Shown in pieces: positions 4,841-20,417 of a DNA stretch of 21,681 nt. The number at the start of each line of letters is the position of its first letter. Within the stretch, counting starts at the first letter, position 1. Origin of the DNA: a virus; the IMG/VR virus record IMGVR_UViG_3300025131_000494, positions 1-21,681 of that record; one strand, given 5' to 3'. Below the pieces are notes generated by a model. It did no database searches and was not told where the DNA came from. It saw only the letters and a program-made list of their open reading frames with translations. The translations under genes were made by a program, and so were the position numbers.

Positions 4841-5152
4841 TCAATACCCGCTTTTATTGTTGACGCTAAAAACAAACGAAGCGCCTTCATCAAAAGAAAT
4901 GTGTTTTTTTACATTCTTAGATTTTTTACGATCAATGACAGGATGTCCGTAGTCATTTTTGACCACCCTTCCATTCTTGTATTTTTTGTAGACAGGCTCC
5001 AATTCATGGTACGCAATCTCCACGATACCTTCCGCTAACACACAGTTCTCGGAGTAAATATCGAAATCTACATCCATCTTGTAGTTTTCTTTTAAGTATA
5101 ACTCAAGGGCTTCTACGACTTCATAATAATGTACTTCAATTTCTATGCTCAT
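4841..5152 (-). CDS. First gene of the leftward early operon, hypothetical (103 aa)
   Basis: A 103-residue protein: an amphipathic N-terminal region (IEVHYYEVVEALELYLKENY), a Val/Ile-rich strand region and a basic, Lys-rich part (KKYKNGRVVKNDYGH, then RKKSKNVKKH) before a short C-terminal strand. No family is recognised. TAGGAGAAAGAACA precedes the ATG, so the ribosome-binding site is strong. It starts about 20 nt downstream of the predicted transcript start of the best promoter in the window, so it is probably among the earliest leftward products. Confidence 0.7.
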   Translation of the reverse strand: MSIEIEVHYYEVVEALELYLKENYKMDVDFDIYSENCVLAEGIVEIAYHELEPVYKKYKNGRVVKNDYGHPVIDRKKSKNVKKHISFDEGASFVFSVNNKSGY

Positions 5153-5178
5153 TGTTCTTTCTCCTAATTTGTATGGGA

Positions 5179-5207
5179 AGTATAGTTGTCTTAATATTAT
5201 AGGTCAA
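5179..5207 (-). promoter_or_regulatory. Strong sigma-70-like leftward promoter
   Basis: On the - strand TTGACC (plus 5202-5207) is followed by exactly 17 bp and then TATACT (plus 5179-5184). Each hexamer has 5 of 6 consensus bases. Transcription would start near 5172, just before the 103-aa gene. Its quality suggests recognition by the host RNA polymerase and early expression. Confidence 0.75.
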
Positions 5208-5264
5208 GCTTTTTATGCGTCTTAAAATAAATTTGCTTTTGGTCCGTGTTTCGTTTACCATCGT

Positions 5265-5293
5265 TTTACAAATCACAATAACGGTTATATAGA
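5265..5293 (+). promoter_or_regulatory. Candidate rightward promoter of the replication operon
   Basis: TTTACA (5265-5270) is followed by 17 bp and TATAGA (5288-5293). The -35 matches 5 of 6 and the -10 matches 4 of 6. Initiation near 5300 would produce a leader RNA of about 80 nt that starts almost directly with the hairpin at 5309-5365. It is divergent from the leftward promoter, with about 58 bp between the -35 elements. Confidence 0.55.
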
Positions 5294-5299
5294 AACCGT
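5281..5299. promoter_or_regulatory. Inverted repeat over the rightward -10 (possible operator)
   Basis: ACGGTT (5281-5286) and AACCGT (5294-5299) flank a 7-bp centre that contains most of the predicted -10. A repressor or activator bound here would control the replication operon. The half-sites do not match the palindrome before the RHH gene, so that protein is not an obvious ligand. Confidence 0.45.
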
Positions 5300-5308
5300 A
5301 TAAACAAA

Positions 5309-5365
5309 GTGACCAGAGGGCCCCACCCTCTAGTTTGAGACAACATATCTGGGCTCTCTGGTTGC
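5309..5365 (+). promoter_or_regulatory. Long leader hairpin with a competing short hairpin, before the first replication gene
   Basis: GUGACCAGAGGGCCC (5309-5323) can pair along all 15 positions with GGGCUCUCUGGUUGC (5351-5365), using four G-U pairs, around a 27-nt loop. The 5' arm can instead fold on itself: AGAGGG (5315-5320), loop CCCCA, CCCUCU (5326-5331). The two folds exclude each other. The long stem ends 5 nt before AGGAAA, the ribosome-binding site of the gene at 5381. No U-tract follows, so this is better seen as an RNA processing or translation-control element than as a terminator. Confidence 0.6.
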
Positions 5366-5380
5366 CAAAAAGGAAATAGA

Positions 5381-5971
5381 ATGAAGAACGAACCAATTGT
5401 AGACCTATTTGAAAAGGCGACCGAACGCAAAGTCACTAAACTAGACGACTCCCAACTTAAATCTTTGAGCGAAAGCATTGACCAAATGCTACGAGTTGGC
5501 GGAGAAATCGGCAACACCGAGGAACTGCTCCGCAAACTCAGAGAACAATACCGACAGCTTTCCGAAGAAGCGCTCCCAGAAAAACTTGCGCAGATTGGCA
5601 TGAAAGAACTGCGTCTGGAAGACGGTTCTAAGATCACAATAGATAATTTTTATTCCACTCGCATCACCGAGAGAAACAAAGAAGCCGCACACCAATGGCT
5701 GCGCGACAATGGCCACGGCGACATCATCAAGAATCAAGTGAGTGTTTCCTTCGGTAAAGGCGAAGATGACACGGCACTCGAAACTATGGCGCTTTTAAAA
5801 GAGTTTTTGCAAAAGGATGGAAACACCCCCACGCAAAAGGAAAGCGTCCACCCATCCACCCTCAAAGCGTTCGTTAAAGAACGAGTTGAAAGTGGCGACA
5901 CTGCGTTCAATCTCGACGTACAGAAACAATTTTCTTTGTACAAAGGGAAACGGACGAAAATAACTAAATAA
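5381..5971 (+). CDS. Conserved phage protein at the head of the replication operon (196 aa)
   Basis: A 196-residue soluble protein. Residues about 18-70 form a long charged helical region, probably coiled coil (LKSLSESIDQML, EELLRKLREQYRQLSEEALP). Residues about 68-125 carry the most distinctive part: KLAQIGMKELRLEDGSKI, then WLRDNGHGDIIKNQVSVSFG. The C-terminal part has a helical HPSTLKAFVKERVESG segment. This arrangement is seen in hypothetical proteins of many phages next to ssDNA-binding or recombination genes, but I know of no proven function. AGGAAA lies 4 nt before the ATG, and a long leader hairpin lies just upstream. It precedes the SSB-like gene by 23 nt. Confidence 0.75.
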   Translation: MKNEPIVDLFEKATERKVTKLDDSQLKSLSESIDQMLRVGGEIGNTEELLRKLREQYRQLSEEALPEKLAQIGMKELRLEDGSKITIDNFYSTRITERNKEAAHQWLRDNGHGDIIKNQVSVSFGKGEDDTALETMALLKEFLQKDGNTPTQKESVHPSTLKAFVKERVESGDTAFNLDVQKQFSLYKGKRTKITK

Positions 5972-5994
5972 TATAAATAAGAAAGGAAGAAAAA

Positions 5995-6771
5995 ATGGCT
6001 ACGAAAAAGCAAGATAATATGTTGTCTCTTTTTGAAGACAACGCAGGTGCCGGTATCGGCGAAATTAGTGCGGATGATTTAGCGACTCCGCGTATCTCTA
6101 TAGTGCAGGCGATGAGTCCGCAAATTAAGAAGTCGAGTCCAAAGTACAGTCCAGACGCCAAAGTTGGCGACATGATGTTCACGGCAACCAATACGTTCGT
6201 GGACGGCGATGAAGGCATACGCTTTCTGCCGGTTTTCTATGATCGAAACTACGTTGAGTGGAAAATGGGACGTGAGGGCTTTGTTGGAGTACACCCACTA
6301 AACACGCCACTGATGGCACAAACCACAAGAGACGCGAGCTACAACGACGTACTGACCAAACCCGATGGAAGCACTACGATTTTGCAGAACACTGCAAATC
6401 ACTACGGCTTTGCTGAAATCAACGGTGAGCTACAGCGTTGTGTCATAAACATGTCCCGCTCACAACTCAAAGTTTCGAGAGCGTGGATTGGTTTAATCAA
6501 CGGAACACGAATGAATGGCGCCAAAGGAGACTTTACTCCTCCGTCATACTCTCATTGGTATGTGGTAAGAAGCGTAGAAATTGAAGGCGCTAAAGGCTCT
6601 TACTACAATTTTTCTGTTACGCAAGAACGTTCGTTGAATAACAAAGAGGCAGAGCTTTTTGAAGAAGCACAAGAGTTTTCTTCGTTTTGTGAAAAAGGCG
6701 GGATGCAGCCCGTACTACCCAAAGCAGAGCAGAACGCACAAGCAATAGAGGACCAGTCTACAGATTGGTAA
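5995..6771 (+). CDS. Probable single-stranded DNA-binding-like phage protein (258 aa)
   Basis: A 258-residue protein. The N-terminus is polar. Residues about 30-90 contain ATPRISIVQAMSPQ, then VGDMMFTATNTFV, then GIRFLPVFYDRNYVEW, a beta-rich pattern shared with a group of phage proteins found in replication operons. The C-terminal about 30 residues are low-complexity and acidic and end in EDQSTDW. Acidic tails ending in an aromatic residue are typical of ssDNA-binding proteins such as E. coli SSB (ending in F) and T7 gp2.5 (ending in F). That tail, the beta-rich core and the place just before the primase suggest an SSB role. I see no diagnostic OB-fold motif, so this remains an inference. 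AGGAAG 9 nt before the ATG is a good ribosome-binding site. Confidence 0.55.
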   Translation: MATKKQDNMLSLFEDNAGAGIGEISADDLATPRISIVQAMSPQIKKSSPKYSPDAKVGDMMFTATNTFVDGDEGIRFLPVFYDRNYVEWKMGREGFVGVHPLNTPLMAQTTRDASYNDVLTKPDGSTTILQNTANHYGFAEINGELQRCVINMSRSQLKVSRAWIGLINGTRMNGAKGDFTPPSYSHWYVVRSVEIEGAKGSYYNFSVTQERSLNNKEAELFEEAQEFSSFCEKGGMQPVLPKAEQNAQAIEDQSTDW

Positions 6772-6780
6772 ACAAAAACT

Positions 6781-6837
6781 GCTAGCGCAAGGGCCTTTCT
6801 ATACCTATGGTAAACCCCCAGAGGGGCCCTTGTTAGC
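6781..6837 (+). promoter_or_regulatory. Long intergenic hairpin before the primase gene
   Basis: The 79-nt gap holds a long stem. GCUAGC (6781-6786) pairs with GUUAGC (6832-6837). After a 2-nt bulge, AAGGGCCUUUCU (6789-6800) pairs with AGAGGGGCCCUU (6820-6831), with two G-U pairs. The apical loop contains a small UACC-UAU-GGUA hairpin (6802-6812). The stem ends directly before AAAGGGG, the primase ribosome-binding site. CCAGAGGGGCCC here resembles CCAGAGGGCCCC in the 5309-5365 leader. No U-tract follows. RNase III processing or transcript-end protection of the SSB-like mRNA is possible. Confidence 0.65.
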
Positions 6838-6849
6838 AAAGGGGCATAA

Positions 6850-8448
6850 GTGAAAGAATTAGCAGTAGAATTTATGGAAACATTCGCCGGATTGGAAAGA
6901 GCGTATGGTATCTATGAAATTCGCGGCACCAAACAAACAGCGAAAGGCACGAAGAAAGACGGCAGAGGACGAACACTACAAGAACCCCTGTCCCTGGTCC
7001 ACTGGCAGAATCACTTAAACGGACAAACCTCCATTGGTGTCATACCCATCACTGACGACGAAACCTGTCAATGGGGTTGCATAGACGTTGACGAATATCC
7101 GGTTGACATCGACCATTTACAAAAACTCATTGCAGACATGTCACTGCCCTTGGTCCCCTGTATGACTAAATCGGGCGGAGTACACTTGTTTTTGTTTACA
7201 CAGAACCCTGTGCCTGCATACAAATTTAAAACCAAACTCGAAGAGATTGCCGCCGCCATGGGGCGCACACAAGACGAGATCTTTCCCAAACAATACCAAT
7301 GGGCCAAACAACTGCCCAAAGAAAAACAAACAGGAAACTGGTTGAACATGCCTTATTTTGGTGGACAAGAAACCACGCGCTACGGAATAAACAAACAAGG
7401 AGAAACACTGTCTCCCGAAGAATTCATCCAAGTTGTTAAGAAAGCCGCAATTACGGAACAACAGCTTGACAAACTAAAACCCATAAAGAAAAGCCGAAAG
7501 GCTAACGGGGAGGGCTCGAAAGAGTCTTTCTGGGACCAAGCGCCGCCGTGTTTGGTACACATGAAGCTAAACGGGATACCTGAAGGCACCCGCAACGACG
7601 CTCTTTTCTCTTACGGGGTACTCTTTAGAAAGATGCACCCTGAAAGCGATGAGTGGCGCGACAAACTTCAGGAAGTGAACAAAGCAGCGTGTCACAAGCC
7701 CCTGTCACACTCTGAGTTGAACGCTTTAATGAATAGTTTGGAGAAGTCCGACTATCGTTATAAGTGTACCACACCTCCTTTGGTAAACCATTGCCAAAGC
7801 GGCGTTTGCGTTACAAAAAGGTACGGCATTGATGCCTCTGAAAAAGAGGTGGCTTTGACTGGACTTAGAAAGTATCTGACGGACCCTCCCTTATGGCACC
7901 TAGACATAGAAGGACAAACCTTGGTCCTCGAGACGCGGCAACTTCACAACTTTTCTTTGTACCAACAACGGTGCATGGAAGTGCTCAATGTTTGCCCTCC
8001 TGATTTAAAAAAGAAAGACTGGGTGATGAAACTCAACGCGCTTTTGCAAGACGTACAAGAAATTGAGGTGCCACCGGATATGACAAAGGCGGGCTTGTTG
8101 CAAGATGCGATCATAGAGTTTTGCAAAAACACGGAGTCTTCTGCTCGAGTGGCCGTTGCCGCAGGGGCTGTTTATAGAAGCGAAGAAACAAAACCACAAG
8201 AATGGTGGTTTCGTGGGCGAGATTTGGTAAAGTATATTAAGGACTTCAAAAACATGAAGACCATAAGAGACGCAGAGATTTTTAACGAGTTGAAGGAACT
8301 GGGGGCTCACACGGCGACGAAATATATTGACAAGGGGGCCGGCGCTACTTCCATCTGGATTCTCGAGACACAAGAAGAGTCTAACTTAAACGTCAGTGCG
8401 AAAGATTTTAAGCTCAACAAACCCAAAAAGGATTGGGAAGATGAGTAG
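6850..8448 (+). CDS. Archaeo-eukaryotic-type (AEP) DNA primase
   Basis: A 532-residue primase of the AEP superfamily, closest in layout to the TOTE-type and related phage primases. The catalytic metal-binding pair is D79 and D81 in IDVDEY. The second motif is SGGVH (108-112), and EIFPKQ (143-148) with GNWLNMPYFGG (162-172) completes the pattern of that group. Residues about 242-300 (GIPEGTRNDALFSYGVLF) form a PriCT-like helical domain. C306, H314, C315 and C320 in YKC-x8-HC-x4-C may bind a metal. Residues about 340-532 look like a C-terminal accessory region without Walker motifs, so no helicase is fused. It would lay primers for the family A polymerase two genes downstream. The start is GTG at 6850 with AAAGGGG upstream. 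It overlaps the helicase gene by 8 nt. Confidence 0.85.
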   Translation: MKELAVEFMETFAGLERAYGIYEIRGTKQTAKGTKKDGRGRTLQEPLSLVHWQNHLNGQTSIGVIPITDDETCQWGCIDVDEYPVDIDHLQKLIADMSLPLVPCMTKSGGVHLFLFTQNPVPAYKFKTKLEEIAAAMGRTQDEIFPKQYQWAKQLPKEKQTGNWLNMPYFGGQETTRYGINKQGETLSPEEFIQVVKKAAITEQQLDKLKPIKKSRKANGEGSKESFWDQAPPCLVHMKLNGIPEGTRNDALFSYGVLFRKMHPESDEWRDKLQEVNKAACHKPLSHSELNALMNSLEKSDYRYKCTTPPLVNHCQSGVCVTKRYGIDASEKEVALTGLRKYLTDPPLWHLDIEGQTLVLETRQLHNFSLYQQRCMEVLNVCPPDLKKKDWVMKLNALLQDVQEIEVPPDMTKAGLLQDAIIEFCKNTESSARVAVAAGAVYRSEETKPQEWWFRGRDLVKYIKDFKNMKTIRDAEIFNELKELGAHTATKYIDKGAGATSIWILETQEESNLNVSAKDFKLNKPKKDWEDE

Positions 8449-11828: not shown

Positions 11829-11864
11829 TATATGTTGTATATATTAAGGGACTTGTATTATAAT
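11826..11864 (+). promoter_or_regulatory. Palindrome and promoter upstream of the RHH gene (likely operator)
   Basis: TAATATAT (11826-11833) and ATATATTA (11839-11846) are perfect inverted arms with a 5-bp centre. They begin at the polymerase stop codon. A perfect TATAAT lies at 11859-11864 and a weak -35, TTGTAT, at 11835-11840 (18-bp spacing), the latter inside the palindrome. A dimer or tetramer bound here would block this internal promoter. Autoregulation by the RHH protein encoded next is a natural guess. Confidence 0.55.
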
Positions 11865-11891
11865 CTATCAGATAAACCATGAGGAGAATTT

Positions 11892-12038
11892 ATGAACACT
11901 GATAAATGGAAAAGCGTAGCGATACGAAAAGAAATCGTAGAGCTGGCTAGAAAAATTGGACTCGCAACAGAGCGTCCAACCAGTAATGTGTTTGCACAAG
12001 CCATTAAAGAAATGGCCGCAAAAGAAAAAATAAAGTAG
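11892..12038 (+). CDS. Ribbon-helix-helix (CopG/Arc-like) DNA-binding protein (48 aa)
   Basis: A 48-residue protein. WKSVAIRKEIVELARKIGL has the expected short N-terminal strand (about residues 6-11) and first helix (about 12-22). RPTSNVFAQAIKEMA supplies the turn and second helix (about 28-43) with the usual S-N-V at the helix start. RHH dimers bind DNA through the paired strands and often repress their own gene. GAGGAG lies 5 nt before the ATG. A perfect palindrome and a TATAAT box lie 30-65 bp upstream. It sits between the polymerase and nuclease genes (5-nt gap to the latter). No toxin gene follows, so it looks like a regulator rather than an antitoxin. Confidence 0.65.
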   Translation: MNTDKWKSVAIRKEIVELARKIGLATERPTSNVFAQAIKEMAAKEKIK

Positions 12039-12043
12039 GTGCC

Positions 12044-15700: not shown

Positions 15701-18626
15701 CTTGTTTATCACCTCTAAAAGACTTAGCAATAAGTTGTTTAAACCGGTCCATAGTAGCTTGTGGATCAAGAAAAACGTCGTCTTCGCCTTGAAACAAAAT
15801 ACTTGGATCATTTACTTCATCTCTTATTTTTATAACACCGTTTTCAATGTCTTTTGACAACTCTTCTTGAAGAACAACAAAGTCTTTAAACATTCGAGTA
15901 ATCTGCCTCATAGACAGTTTTGCTTTAGCTATAGGCCCGCCGGGCCCACTTTGCAGTTCCGCCAAAGTCGTTGGACGCACCCCAGCAGGGGTAAGAAAAC
16001 TTCTGTGGCGGTGATAATAACTTGCTATCCACTCGTCTCTGTCTTTTTTAGACAAAGTTTTTGGAAGCGCGGTTAGATTGTTAGGATTCGCTGCGGGATC
16101 ACTGGAATAGCTTACATAAGCAGCGGAAAGTGTGCCCGGCTCCCACATCGCTTGATATGTTTTACCGTCCATTTCAATGGAGGGCAAAAGATTTTTGTCA
16201 AGAGCGTGTTGTCCGGTAAGAGCGTTTACTTTTCCGGAAAGAGGATTAACAAACTCAAAGCCATCATACATTGCAGAAAACTTTTTCCCTGTTATTGGAT
16301 CCATTAAAGGGTTTAATGTGCCTTCTGAAGCCTCATAAAAATACAAGGAAATTCTGGCGTCTTCGGGGAGTTCCTCAAAAGAAACCAGTTGAGGCTGCGG
16401 AGAATCCTCCTGTTCCTCTTGTTGAGAAGCCCTGATTTTTTCGTTGTCCAAGGCAGGTGTATATGTGACAAAGTTATTGAGTTCAGAGGGAATTACTTTT
16501 TCTCTAAGCGTTTTCCAAAGAGTTTTAGGCGCAAAGAAACGACTTTTCTTTCCATACGGATTGCTTGTGTCTTCAACACGTTCTCGCATAGGGATTATGG
16601 GTTCTTGGGCACGTTCAATGATCTTGTCGATGTTTGCATTAGCTTCAGCTATTGCCTGATTATTGGACAATGTTTTTTGGTTGTATTCTGTTTGTTCTAT
16701 CGTACCGTCTACCAACTTGTTTTTTAAACGGCTGTTGTCCAATTCTTTGTTTAAAAGACTTTTAGACTGTCGCAACAATCGTCGAAGATCTTTTTGCATT
16801 TCTTTAAGCAGTAGAGGAGCTTTTTTGTCTATTACTCCCTTTGACGTGTATCCTGAGTCTGCCATCTTTTGTCGTATCGTGTTGTAAGCAGTAACAATCC
16901 GATCCGCTGTCCTCGGTTCTATAAGATCGTCATACAATTTTTGCACAGTAGAATTGAAAAACCCTGTTTTGCCTTTCATGTTCTGTGCTTCCGGAGTGTT
17001 CTCCAAGCCAATCACACCTTCTTCAATTTCAAAAGGCGTGTACTCAACCGGACCGGGTTGTTGCGCCGCAGTTTTTGGTCCTTCCATCTTGATTTCCGAT
17101 AAGAGCACGCTCTGTTCTTGTTCCAGTTCCGAAACTATTTGTGCGTCTTCAGCATACTCAAGTTCTTCTTGAATCTCTCTTAAACGCTTTAACCGTCCAT
17201 CGATCTTTTCAAACTCTAGTCGCGTTTTCTCAATACGATCAACTTTTTCTTGTTGTTTAGAAATAGCTTCATCCATTTTTTCAACAGCAGCCCTTAGTTT
17301 TTTGGTGTCTTTTTTAAGATCAGGGTCTTTTAAAACATCTTGTTTTTCCTTTTCAAGTTCGTTTAATGTTTGAACGGCTTCCGATTGCGCAGTGCCTGTT
17401 TGCGCCAAACCCAAAGCAACTTTTTCTTGGTCCGACCTTTTCGCAGCCTCCATTTTTTCCTGCCAATCAAGGTACTCTTGTTGTGCCTGGTTCTGTTCTT
17501 CCGGAGTCAACATTTGATAACCCACTGTTTTGGGTGTAATCATTTCTTTTATTTGGTCTTCGGTGAAGTTGGCGTTAGCAAGTTGAGCGACGCCCGTCTG
17601 AAGACCACCAGTTATAACGGTTGCAAACAAAGTTACCGTATGGCGTTTAATCACCAACTCTTTTTTTAGTTCTTCGTATTTCTCGCCATCTATCTGCCCT
17701 GAACTGTACGCATCTTCAATCATCAACAACTCTTTATTTAGATCAAAATTTTCTGCGTTAAGATTTTGTAAATATGTGGCTGCTTGTTCTCCCCCTATTT
17801 CGGAAAAAAGAAAACGAAGCGCGTTTTTAGAAAAACCCCCAGCCGCGTCTTTGGCGCCGGGAAACAGTTTTAAAAAGAACTTAGCAGGGAGTATTTCGGT
17901 TATGCCTTCAACAAACCCGTCAAATGCACCATATTTAGTGGCGTCTCTGTGGGACAAACCGTCGACTCTTCCATTTGTGTAACTGTCTCCAGCGGTAAGC
18001 GCAGAAAGACCAATAACCATTGGTTCTGGTCTTCTTGTAATTAAAGAGGAGACTGTAAGCGGGCCCATCGTGAAAAGACTTAGCATAGAAGTTCTAAGGC
18101 TTTCTTGAAACGTATTTAGCTCTTCTTCCGGACCCAACTCTTCAACCCGGTTAATGCCTTCATCCATTCGGTCAATCAACTCTACAGAAACAGCATCAAT
18201 TTCTTTGTTCCATTCTTCTCGCTCTTCGTCTGTTTTAGGGCCAATGTATGTACCACTGGGCGAAACCAAACCAAAACGCGAATTTTCTAAAACACTTAGT
18301 TGTAGGGCACTGTACGCATTTTTATATATTTGCCCGACCTGTGGACCGACGCCCTCAAATGCGGGACGTATCAACTCTTTTTGTTCTTGAAGAGACGTTC
18401 GGTTAATGCCCTCATCAAACATTTCGCGTTCTCTGAGTGTGGCTCCAACCATGCTTCGCCACGATTGTTTCCGCTCGTCGCGAGCATCGAAAGAATCTTC
18501 TTCGGGTTCGGGGACAACGGTTTCCGGGTCAAGTTGGGGAAAAAAGGTTTCTGGGGACTGAGATTGGTTGCTTCCGGCAATAGCCTTTCTTAACTCTTCT
18601 TTTTGCTCTTCAGTTAAAGGAGCCAT
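12717..18626 (-). CDS. Giant polyvalent-like phage protein, probably an internal or ejected virion protein (1969 aa)
   Basis: At 1969 residues this is the largest gene here, at the end of a virion-protein operon. From the N-terminus: a polar segment; about 190-240, a Gly/Ala-rich helical block (MVIGLSALTAGDSYTNGR and onward) like those in phage polyvalent proteins; about 395-510, a long charged coiled coil; about 943-946, ILFQ followed by G, a short motif I associate with polyvalent proteins; about 1230-1300, LNGYYTTPEMARAI then a hydrophobic WISLAYLTLSIKTQSRN region; about 1470-1520, IPNYNRLPNLVDMLRL with a hydrophobic helix; about 1568-1600, VIGIPPAAAILLFPDALASF, a possible membrane segment; then a charged helical C-terminus. 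I see no lytic transglycosylase, peptidase or RNA polymerase motif. T7 gp16 (1318 aa) is an analogue by size and place, not by visible sequence. GAGAAG precedes the ATG, and the gap to the previous gene is 9 nt. Confidence 0.8.
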   Translation of the reverse strand: MAPLTEEQKEELRKAIAGSNQSQSPETFFPQLDPETVVPEPEEDSFDARDERKQSWRSMVGATLREREMFDEGINRTSLQEQKELIRPAFEGVGPQVGQIYKNAYSALQLSVLENSRFGLVSPSGTYIGPKTDEEREEWNKEIDAVSVELIDRMDEGINRVEELGPEEELNTFQESLRTSMLSLFTMGPLTVSSLITRRPEPMVIGLSALTAGDSYTNGRVDGLSHRDATKYGAFDGFVEGITEILPAKFFLKLFPGAKDAAGGFSKNALRFLFSEIGGEQAATYLQNLNAENFDLNKELLMIEDAYSSGQIDGEKYEELKKELVIKRHTVTLFATVITGGLQTGVAQLANANFTEDQIKEMITPKTVGYQMLTPEEQNQAQQEYLDWQEKMEAAKRSDQEKVALGLAQTGTAQSEAVQTLNELEKEKQDVLKDPDLKKDTKKLRAAVEKMDEAISKQQEKVDRIEKTRLEFEKIDGRLKRLREIQEELEYAEDAQIVSELEQEQSVLLSEIKMEGPKTAAQQPGPVEYTPFEIEEGVIGLENTPEAQNMKGKTGFFNSTVQKLYDDLIEPRTADRIVTAYNTIRQKMADSGYTSKGVIDKKAPLLLKEMQKDLRRLLRQSKSLLNKELDNSRLKNKLVDGTIEQTEYNQKTLSNNQAIAEANANIDKIIERAQEPIIPMRERVEDTSNPYGKKSRFFAPKTLWKTLREKVIPSELNNFVTYTPALDNEKIRASQQEEQEDSPQPQLVSFEELPEDARISLYFYEASEGTLNPLMDPITGKKFSAMYDGFEFVNPLSGKVNALTGQHALDKNLLPSIEMDGKTYQAMWEPGTLSAAYVSYSSDPAANPNNLTALPKTLSKKDRDEWIASYYHRHRSFLTPAGVRPTTLAELQSGPGGPIAKAKLSMRQITRMFKDFVVLQEELSKDIENGVIKIRDEVNDPSILFQGEDDVFLDPQATMDRFKQLIAKSFRGDKQAQAQLGALGQTELLEKIVAGRKRITNNSKRIIELVKLMDPEGTFYTKEKVQQLEDSVERYMGRIFGAYVFPDWKAPNRKFASPEEKAQHKAAVEQLAGIYVEQTGKSPEEMRKLAESDLDKLYKGTEQQRTEVFVRMFEIPPKDTGTISPAYLATDTGQTKFIAPQLKQKRTDIPKEVRKALGELDEPWAMAQMTAYKQEQFIAMTEYLFDVARIGSSPTTRFLSRVPDRRYSTEIVIPGDVISPLNGYYTTPEMARAIKKGAGYGPISRYFESTDFFASQPARETYLAVQAMTGWISLAYLTLSIKTQSRNFQSAMLFPLMSGNWEAYNHPKEAAAYIKEKISGMTQKELDFIVGENVTQSSVNIGERRALFDKMQESTSWGEFFAAVEEAEGKKVGWRQPVKKGKRLLRKFLSGAEETYVAADDIPKIMNFLGEVDSGYKIFAPRGIENLTEQQIEDRIDMISELMVQMGGRKISRSESTPAENLDLAIKKRAAFLTRRNIPNYNRLPNLVDMLRLAFMSNFAGFPTAIAVAEANILKTMMVEGNLALSKDPAVTRGLKGRLGKRAAMRGVSNIGWAARGATQTTLMNAWYVAKNASVIGIPPAAAILLFPDALASFVSPWAANHEFLVVSDADEEGVFYVVDVSYTDGYTMVSGPGRLMLKYLTARVFMGPEAASQVWDIFVRSMVDLRGTYFDQKIMLGILQELRTGLDNDTGALLWNPQLEDWQKNKAKFDHAVAELAPKAVHEGIDLAKSIFLKGEDALDKNDLERSVLKSFPQALGTKGMPINAQEIMSSFKVSEFNRAFQQSDRFAKNVFRKAEGSGLGYGDMPAMVEAYDELQRQHLKHVRKFRYELHWKGPLLSGKSPQEIIGYIQSSERDETIRVIDRKNVFTDRKKKPLYEPTDINNFVNAYVERLLKAQKKQPDIFTNVEIRRRARFLAETIKEESYDKWSKEPVYWTIRGAIGESKAKKESGLTDLQKAELRETLRSTED

Positions 18627-18635
18627 CGTGCTTCT

Positions 18636-20417
18636 CTACGGAACCGTATAGGTACGTAATGCTCCGTTGGGTTCTACGCCCACTAAAAGAACATCACCAG
18701 ACTTATAGGTTCCGTCTTCAACTCTTTCCTCTATAACGTCTTGGGGAACACCTTGCGCATCGTGATTAAAGGCGGTGCCTTGTTGTTGAGAGCCTTGTTG
18801 TTGAGAGCCTTGTTGAAAACCCATTTGTTGGCTTATTCCGTGTTGCAAAAACAAATACGCAAAATATCCGGAATTGTCCGGAAAGATTTCTCCTATTCCC
18901 TGTGTTTTCAACCAACTATAAAAACTAGGATACTCTTCCCTGAAAAATGCTTTTCTCTCTGGAACACTCATTGACTCCGCAAGAACGTTCCCTGTGTCCG
19001 GCGTTCCTAATTGGGTCCAAAGATCAGTGGCGTTCTTCGCTCCGTTCTTCGCTCCTTCAACAACTGCTTTCGTTGTACCCATTTGTTGTAATGCCCTGTC
19101 ATACTCAACGGTTCCTTTTTTTGAATCGTCATTCAGTATGCTCAAATAATATTTTTCGTCTTCACGAGTGGGTGTGTTTTTCTGGTCCCCAATCTGTCTA
19201 GCCAGAATGTCCCCGGCTTCTGTAAGGGCTTGTTTTTCTATTGCCCCAGTGGTGCTTAACAAGGTGTTTGATAACTCGCCTTCTATTTTTTGTGTCTGCT
19301 GATAAACTGCTCGCAACATGTCGGCATCGCCCTGTTTTAGCGCTTGTTGTTCGGCTTGTTTTAGTTTTTCGATCTCTTTGTCATAACCAAGAACAGCTTT
19401 TCTACCGGCACTCTTTGCTCTTTTTGATCTTGTAGAAAAAGCATCTAGCCACTTGCCCCCCATGGTGGAAAGCGCGGGAGAGTAAGAAGGTGTGCGCATG
19501 GCGTCTTCTTCCGCAACAGCTCTGACTTCCTCCGCTAAATTTTCTAGGTCTGTCCAATCAGTCATAAACCCTTTACTAAAATCACCGGCTCTTATTTTCT
19601 TTTCAGCAGCATCTCGTCTGTCTCTCTCGGCTTGGACTTCTCTTTCTCTTCTTGCCTCTATTCTGTCGGTTGAGGTTCTGCGGTTTCGTTCGATAATGGA
19701 CAACGGATCATCGTCTTCCTCTTCTACAGGCTGAACGCCGCTTGGCAAACTTCCACCAAACATTTTCTGCACCGCTTGATCGGCCATGTCCATAGGCATA
19801 TCCATAGGCATATCCATAGGCATATCCATAGGTTGTTCTTGTGCCGGCGGAGCGCTGACTATCATCCGTGCTTTTTCTAGGTAACTTTGTGCCACTTCTG
19901 CGGGAATAAGGTCTACTTCTTCGGGTAAGTTCATGGCTTCTTTGACCGTTGCTTCAGCTTGTCCTTCCATTACTTCAATTTCATCCATCAATATCATGTC
20001 CATGTCCTGCATCGGCATGCCGCCTGCTGCCATTTGTGCTTGCATGATTGACATGGCTTCATCAAATTTTTGGTCAAAGATCGACATGGCTTGTTGCTTT
20101 GCCAATTCAAGTTTGTTTTCTTTGACTTCCGGCTCTGCGGACATTTCTTCTTCCAGCCCAGCAACAATGCCTGCATCCGTTACTTTAGGAGCGCCAAAGT
20201 TTCCTTCTGGAAAAAACCCTGCGCCGCCAATACCGGAACCGGTCATTTCATTAAGGGGTTCACCCATAAACTCTGCTGGACTAAAAAGATCCGGTGAAAC
20301 CGAAGCAATGCCCATTGGACCTGGACCACTGCCTTCTTGCATACGAGGCATTGGCACCATGCCGCCTACCTGCATGTTCACTGCATTTCTAAACATGGGT
20401 CGTTTGTTCCAGGACAC
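18636..20417 (-). CDS. Met/Gln-rich virion-associated protein (593 aa)
   Basis: A 593-residue protein with a low-complexity first half. The N-terminus (KRPMFRNAVNMQVGGMVPMP) is a Gly/Met/Pro-rich opening I associate with structural proteins of marine phages. Residues about 125-220 are rich in Met and acidic residues and include four PMDM units from a 12-bp DNA repeat. Residues about 240-290 are a charged helix (RRTSTDRIEARREREVQAER), a probable coiled coil. About 320-500 is helical. Near the C-terminus a QQGSQ-type repeat precedes a compact end with VLLVGVEPNG. The start is GTG at 20415-20417, with GGAGGG about 10 nt upstream inside the previous gene; the gap is 2 nt. An internal virion or tail role is inferred from its place and composition. 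Confidence 0.7.
   Translation of the reverse strand: MSWNKRPMFRNAVNMQVGGMVPMPRMQEGSGPGPMGIASVSPDLFSPAEFMGEPLNEMTGSGIGGAGFFPEGNFGAPKVTDAGIVAGLEEEMSAEPEVKENKLELAKQQAMSIFDQKFDEAMSIMQAQMAAGGMPMQDMDMILMDEIEVMEGQAEATVKEAMNLPEEVDLIPAEVAQSYLEKARMIVSAPPAQEQPMDMPMDMPMDMPMDMADQAVQKMFGGSLPSGVQPVEEEDDDPLSIIERNRRTSTDRIEARREREVQAERDRRDAAEKKIRAGDFSKGFMTDWTDLENLAEEVRAVAEEDAMRTPSYSPALSTMGGKWLDAFSTRSKRAKSAGRKAVLGYDKEIEKLKQAEQQALKQGDADMLRAVYQQTQKIEGELSNTLLSTTGAIEKQALTEAGDILARQIGDQKNTPTREDEKYYLSILNDDSKKGTVEYDRALQQMGTTKAVVEGAKNGAKNATDLWTQLGTPDTGNVLAESMSVPERKAFFREEYPSFYSWLKTQGIGEIFPDNSGYFAYLFLQHGISQQMGFQQGSQQQGSQQQGTAFNHDAQGVPQDVIEERVEDGTYKSGDVLLVGVEPNGALRTYTVP
18778..18815. repeat. 15-bp tandem repeat (2.5 copies) in the virion gene
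   Basis: CCTTGTTGTTGAGAG occurs at 18778-18792 and 18793-18807 and partly from 18808. On the coding strand it encodes QQGSQ-type units. The copies are identical, so they probably arose by recent slippage. Confidence 0.8.
19785..19832. repeat. 12-bp tandem repeat, four copies, encoding PMDM units
   Basis: CATATCCATAGG is repeated at 19797-19808, 19809-19820 and 19821-19832. A one-base variant, CATGTCCATAGG, lies at 19785-19796. The coding strand reads Pro-Met-Asp-Met four times. The near-identity suggests slippage, so copy number may vary between related phages. Confidence 0.9.

Follow-up and report, generated by a model that had tools for sequence, protein, structure and literature searches.

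A stem-loop between the SSB-like gene and the primase gene

The stretch of DNA analyzed here (the window, a 21.7-kb virus record of 21,681 nt) carries a stem-loop directly ahead of its primase gene, and we wondered whether this structure is one of two related leader hairpins read by a common factor, as the initial annotation had proposed, or an element with a role of its own in the replication operon. The operon runs rightward, with all its genes on the same strand. It opens with a Pam3 gp33-like gene (5381..5971, + strand), which is followed by a Pam3 gp34-like gene (phrog_2402; 5995..6771, +; Pfam PF23977, E 4e-47), called SSB-like below, an archaeo-eukaryotic-type primase gene (AEP-TOTE; 6850..8448, +, with a GTG start at 6850), a UvrD/Dda-type helicase, a family A DNA polymerase and an exonuclease. 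A gap of 78 nt separates the end of the SSB-like gene from the primase start; it holds one stem-loop, hairpin 2 (6780..6838, +). The gap had been described as the only real one between genes of the operon; it does hold the hairpin, but it is not the only one, since a gap of 215 nt follows polA (11829-12043). That second gap contains a possible 48-aa ORF with GAGGAG ahead of its ATG (11892-12038).

Folding and a stem scan place the arms of hairpin 2 at 6780-6784/6834-6838 and 6787-6800/6820-6833, that is, a main stem of 14 bp with 4-5 bp below a 2-nt bulge, closed by a loop of 19 nt (in the window) that is larger than in the usual intrinsic terminator. On top sits a 4-bp apical hairpin, TACC-TAT-GGTA (6802..6812, +), which is kept only in the allele shared by the window, L002, L015 and L017. 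Folded alone, positions 6781-6837 reach -26.3 kcal/mol with 18 bp (z -3.3, 1 of 200 shuffles being as good), which confirms the initial description of an 18-bp stem with a small apical hairpin that ends at the primase Shine-Dalgarno (SD) sequence. With its flanks, the structure extends to 19 stem bp over 6780-6838 (-28.9 kcal/mol), and in wider context the folding z is -1.9 to -2.0. The SD-like AAGGGGC (6839..6845, +), which directly adjoins the stem, is kept across the window's clade and reads GAGGGGC in L008.

When the whole window was scanned for stems with GC weighting, only two scored at least 14, namely hairpin 1 (17.7), in the leader of the gp33-like gene, and hairpin 2 (15.7). Shuffled windows hold on average 1.4 stems at this threshold, and 10 of 25 reach 15.7 somewhere. 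By itself, the stem of hairpin 2 is thus not beyond chance, and the case for it rests on its position in the gap and on its conservation in relatives. An Rfam search of the window (E ≤ 5) returned three matches, none at 6781-6837 and none at the gathering score.

The hairpin keeps its place among primase relatives, whereas its sequence turns over

The relatives of the primase fall into three tiers by identity: A (80-100%), B (61-65%) and C (mostly 33-38%, with a few genome contigs counted there outside this band). Out of 107 primase loci (the window, a set of 20, 73 new ones and 13 from successive searches), 97 were tabulated; the remaining ten (L054, L073, L094, L100, L106, L107, L108, L110, L156 and L157) had scant upstream sequence or a partial match, upstream sequence being present in some of them. 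L099 was dropped because no start was found. L146, L147 and L150-L155 stand outside the gap folding set, because a ~260-aa ORF does not immediately precede the primase or because the gap is long (249 and 311 nt), and gaps shorter than 35 nt (11 loci) went unscored. The 77 usable gaps were collapsed at 90% likeness into 56 representatives.

Throughout the three tiers, the gene ahead of the primase belongs to one ~260-aa family. Folding z scores below -2 against shuffles were obtained for 47 of the 56 distinct gaps between this gene and the primase (9 of 10 in tier A, 12 of 12 in B and 26 of 34 in C; gaps inside one tier are related, so that these are not counts of independent events). When all stems of a locus (8-22 kb) were ranked, the gap hairpin came first in 15 of the 23 tier A and B loci, second in four and third to fifth in three, and it was not found in one. 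In 11 loci, the gap measures only 3-22 nt and leaves no room for such a hairpin.

The letters follow a different course. No relationship in sequence is seen among the stems of the window, L006, L007, L008, L009 and L045, in phages whose primases are 82-91% identical to the window's. Neither stem nor loop letters of hairpin 2 are conserved past its own allele group. The position of the hairpin is kept across distant phages while its stem sequence diverges completely between lineages. Between the window and L015, the hairpin gap is 92% alike, the 300 bases before it 59% and the 300 bases after it 85%, a pattern that suggests that recombination joined sequences at the hairpin's edge. The idea that the whole hairpin is a mobile element was rejected. 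A pattern scan of viral contigs gave 10 stretches, all in contigs that the primase search had already found, and the tested hairpin-2 loops recur nowhere else, the 13-nt loop of L007 being too short to inform (204 contexts). The outcome is a regulatory feature beyond the reach of sequence search, in which the position after the SSB-like gene is kept and the letters turn over completely.

Compensatory changes and mismatches point to the mRNA

Two sets, A3 and A4, could be aligned for covariation. In A3 (B-tier), 6 of 13 pairs show compensatory changes and 100% of the cells are paired, and none of 500 shuffles came as high for paired cells and covariation score. The corresponding values in A4 are 4 of 19 pairs and 94.7%; here the shuffles came closer, with 17 of 500 matching the number of pairs with double changes. 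The stems also carry information on the strand, because a coding-strand G.T mismatch is a G.U pair in its RNA, and A.C is a G.U pair in the RNA of the opposite strand. A strand-symmetric stem finder, for which 6 of the 56 representatives were too weak to score, counted 24 G.T and 0 A.C mismatches inside stems (p 1.2e-7; 7, 7 and 10 G.T in tiers A, B and C), some of these events being common to related sequences. Thus, the object under selection is the coding-strand RNA, that is, the mRNA.

In named phages, the hairpin is tied to the gp34-like gene

The gp34-like family is present in 497 phage records, and 17 named phages had a usable gap after the gene. HTVC023P, with a 5-nt gap and no hairpin, and the Manatee Spring record, where the gp34-like gene lies on the other strand, were left out. 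As controls we took 34 same-strand gaps from the same and neighboring records, skipping those below 35 or above 210 nt. A stem score of at least 7 was found after the gp34-like gene in 17 of 17 phages versus 12 of 34 control gaps (Fisher 3.7e-6), and the median folding z was -2.81 versus -0.2. The hairpin is kept where the next gene encodes a Dda-like helicase (YuA, CN2 and MP1412, the last nearly the same as YuA in this gap), a separate SSB (CJY) or another protein whose function is not known (LBL3, MTx, Maja and others, with a small protein among them), and the records of YuA, LBL3 and Maja have a terminator annotated at the gap. Because the hairpin is present after the gp34-like gene even when a different gene follows, it is tied to the end of the SSB-like gene, and by this gene context we assign it to the gene upstream and not to the primase downstream.

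As to the protein itself, gp34-like relatives end in an acidic tip (DQSTDW, DKDWED or DDVPF), and in VIA-align an AF2 model aligned weakly with OB-fold proteins (SSB, RPA and gene V; Z 2.4-3.8). The best VIA-align row was a phiC31 integrase-RDF fusion chain (9teh_I; Z 7.9, rmsd 4.2, 152 aligned). Since this chain outscores the SSB, RPA and gene V rows, the label "SSB-like" extends no further than the acidic tip and the weak OB-fold likeness. The model may hint at a possible link between this phage family and recombination directionality factors, the match being below the level that shows kinship. Foldseek with the same model gave no match at E ≤ 0.001, and a sequence search of solved structures returned nothing relevant. 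Vibrio relatives have a separate SSB gene nearby as well.

Hairpin 1 has a different distribution

Hairpin 1 (5309..5365, +) has no sequence homology to hairpin 2. It was found in six records, all in the window's subclade (G003 and G004 show it), and it is absent from L028/L029 and the other A-tier gp33 leaders examined, in phages that do have hairpin 2. Its stem and loop letters are not conserved either. In L023, the insert is replaced by another stem (60% identity), with flanks of 91% and 97% identity and a primase that is 100% identical; in the close relatives L023, L026, L027 and L028, window positions 5309-5365 are swapped for an unrelated stem-loop or absent, with the flanks conserved. 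A conserved dyad, ACGGTT-N7-AACCGT followed by ATAAACAAAGTGA (5281..5299, +), stands upstream of hairpin 1 and is a putative promoter or operator. The hairpin after it always starts with GTGA and may be a 5'-terminal leader stem.

Recurring loop modules and other repeats

G003 (L005) has two tandem hairpins ahead of its primase; the outer one has nearly the stem of the hairpin in L002, a close relative of the window, and a different, long loop. This loop carries a module of ~30 nt, TATAGACAAA(C)TAAACAATAAC...AGTYC, that occurs in hairpins with unrelated stems: besides L005:2770-2928, it is found on another stem in the B-tier pre-primase hairpins of L053, L059, L137 and L144. A version with one extra base is present in G012/G013, in the hairpin that leads an unrelated gene (G012:21584-21665) and that stands behind a TTGACA-TATACT pair resembling a promoter by eye. 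Most matches in a 17-mer scan for the module look like chance hits in coding sequence. One could speculate that hairpins are cassettes with independently recombining stems and loops, and that a phage protein, perhaps the SSB-like one, binds the module and tunes replication genes, a doubtful proposal in our view; the window's hairpin would then be a cassette with another loop.

Other repeats were seen in the same records. The 28-37 kb region of G012, G014 and G016 shows canonical short-loop stem-loops with T-runs about every 500 bases, resembling intrinsic terminators between small genes, and promoter-like pairs (by eye) lie inside an inverted-repeat loop just ahead of a small gene at G012:29705-29792 and G014:34331-34411. 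The B-tier records G017, G019, G023 and G028 contain scattered long palindromes with recurring ends (GACAAGCTAGC..., CTTGCTTGTCTTTTCTATCTAA), much like small mobile palindromes. In G026 (84 kb), the primase matched twice, at 18183-19772 and 74824-76275 (64% and 39% identity, opposite strands), and this contig is possibly joined or chimeric.

The hairpin probably lowers the downstream part of the replication mRNA

What, then, does the hairpin do? Taken together, the comparisons identify hairpin 2 as an RNA element that is real, conserved and functionally ordinary, and we favor, as the probable explanation, an intercistronic attenuator or decay terminator, with which more SSB-like protein would be made than primase, helicase and polymerase. 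The gp33-gp34 (SSB-like) portion of the replication mRNA would have its 3' end at hairpin 2, and the stem-loop would lower the downstream mRNA (primase, helicase, DNA polymerase and exonuclease) relative to that portion. A U-tract (at least 5 T in 9 nt) follows the hairpin in 7 of 12 tier B and 14 of 28 tier C gaps; since this amounts to about half, many of these hairpins are probably leaky intrinsic terminators, composed of stem and U-tract. In the window's clade, no U-tract was found (0 of 10 in tier A), and the hairpin, a stable stem in the gap of one operon, would more likely be a decay terminator, whose stem would stop RNases that degrade the downstream segment and so prolong the life of the upstream one. 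Either route would yield more gp34-like than primase mRNA, and the hairpin seems to shift between the make-up of a terminator and that of a stem lacking a U-tract.

We infer that the purpose would be stoichiometric, the upstream gene being the more highly needed one because its product would coat ssDNA and the enzymes act catalytically. This gives a simple account of how one replication operon could supply more ssDNA-binding protein than enzymes. The initial annotation had likewise suggested that the hairpin sets the dose of SSB-like protein against primase; this part stands as plausible, given the kept boundary, the selection at the RNA level and the frequently terminator-like structure, but the shared factor that was to read the hairpin is not supported. 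Two observations go against our preferred explanation: some lineages have too short a gap at this boundary for any hairpin, and in the window's clade the hairpin has no U-tract and is placed right at the SD, so that its role might instead lie in translation.

Alternative explanations

The location of a 14+5-bp stem with a 2-nt bulge directly ahead of the SD, together with selection at the RNA level, would also suit a processing site, at which host RNase III cuts the stem and frees a primase mRNA with its 5' end beside the SD. Such sites lie between the early genes of T7, and the usual substrate is about two turns of double-stranded RNA. Hairpin 2 has 18-19 bp, interrupted by the bulge, where that enzyme calls for ~20 bp, and the structure is shorter in many relatives: most B and C stems have 7-13 bp, half of them with U-tracts, and no conserved internal loop was seen, so that we regard RNase III processing as unlikely, if conceivable. 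Slightly less credit still goes to a translational operator, in which a phage protein (e.g., the SSB-like protein) would bind the stem or loop and control primase translation. The contact between hairpin and SD in the window's clade and the loop module common to several otherwise unrelated hairpins speak for it, and the T4 proteins gp32 and gp43, which bind a leader pseudoknot and a leader hairpin, respectively, provide a precedent (PMC3014915). However, the letters of the window's hairpin are unconserved past its own allele group, and the hairpin is kept in phages with a different next gene. SD sequestration was rejected, as accessibility is inconsistent among relatives (mean P unpaired 0.36-0.77), with no sign of a conserved on/off switch. 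More improbable is that the window phage itself has a plain intrinsic terminator here, at which most transcripts stop ahead of the primase. Hairpin 2 is indeed a GC-rich stem-loop, and relatives carry canonical terminators at the gap (L087, L101, L102 and L115, and also LBL3, Maja and CJY), but the window's tail after the stem, TTAGCAAAG, has only 2 T of 9, and a consensus terminator scan of the + strand found none in 5100-7000.

A very improbable reading is the one with which we began, a related pair of leader hairpins served by one trans-acting factor. It drew on a 12-mer, CCAGAGGGSCCC, said to be nearly the same in both hairpins, and 11 of 12 positions are indeed identical between hairpin 1 (5313-5324) and hairpin 2 (CCAGAGGGGCCC, 6818..6829, +); the distances to the start codons are similar too, with hairpin 1 ending 15 nt before its ATG and hairpin 2 11-16 nt before its GTG. 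Kinship does not follow, however. In hairpin 1 the match falls within the 5' arm, but in hairpin 2 it spans loop and 3' arm, and structure-preserving shuffles reach it with P 0.012. The 12-mer is not conserved: among 219 loci it occurs nowhere but in the window and one near-identical contig, so that it is private to one strain, and the resemblance is gone in L002, L005 and L007. Hairpin 1, moreover, is missing from phages that have hairpin 2. A covariance model of hairpin 2, by which a third copy was to be sought, gave no match at E < 1e-2 outside the gap between SSB-like gene and primase in 41 sources (640 kb), the only additional near-significant match being to the second of the two hairpins before the G003 primase (E 0.0098). 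These comparisons of sequence largely refute the related pair. Least probable of all is a DNA-level element, be it a cruciform, an origin or an opposite-strand terminator: the palindrome and the AGTTTTTG that follows the stem on the window's minus strand would fit it, but the G.T excess over A.C points to + strand RNA, and the minus-strand T-run is missing from L006, L015 and L016. On these two grounds, the DNA dyad and the opposite-strand terminator were rejected.

Comparison with known systems

A literature search, mostly of titles and abstract openings, brought up no paper that describes this arrangement, and neither the place of the hairpin nor its sequence turnover was described in the literature so searched. 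For expression in YuA- or 14-1-like phages, it gave nothing usable, from which we claim no absence.

Several known systems nevertheless resemble the hairpin. With an intrinsic terminator that permits read-through inside an operon, it shares the stem followed by a U-tract in about half of the tier B and C gaps, as annotated in YuA, LBL3 and Maja; the window's clade differs in the missing U-tract, the long stem and the larger loop (19 nt in the window). Like the early RNase III sites of T7, the hairpin lies between genes just ahead of an SD, but here the stems are shorter in most lineages and no conserved internal loop is seen. The T4 gene 32 and gene 43 leader operators are likewise RNA structures near SSB or polymerase replication genes; our element, by contrast, comes after the SSB-like gene and has an unconserved loop (PMC3014915). 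Closest to the preferred reading for the window's clade are the intercistronic decay hairpins, for which the puf operon of Rhodobacter capsulatus is the classic case; in Escherichia coli, whose operons show differential decay, 26 of 34 stabilized upstream segments end just past a stable hairpin without a U-tract (PMC5927463). The likeness consists in a stable stem in an operon gap that separates more-needed from less-needed genes and, in the window's clade, in the missing U-tract. The differences are that the genes here are those of phages and that many relatives of the window carry a true terminator-like structure at the very same position.
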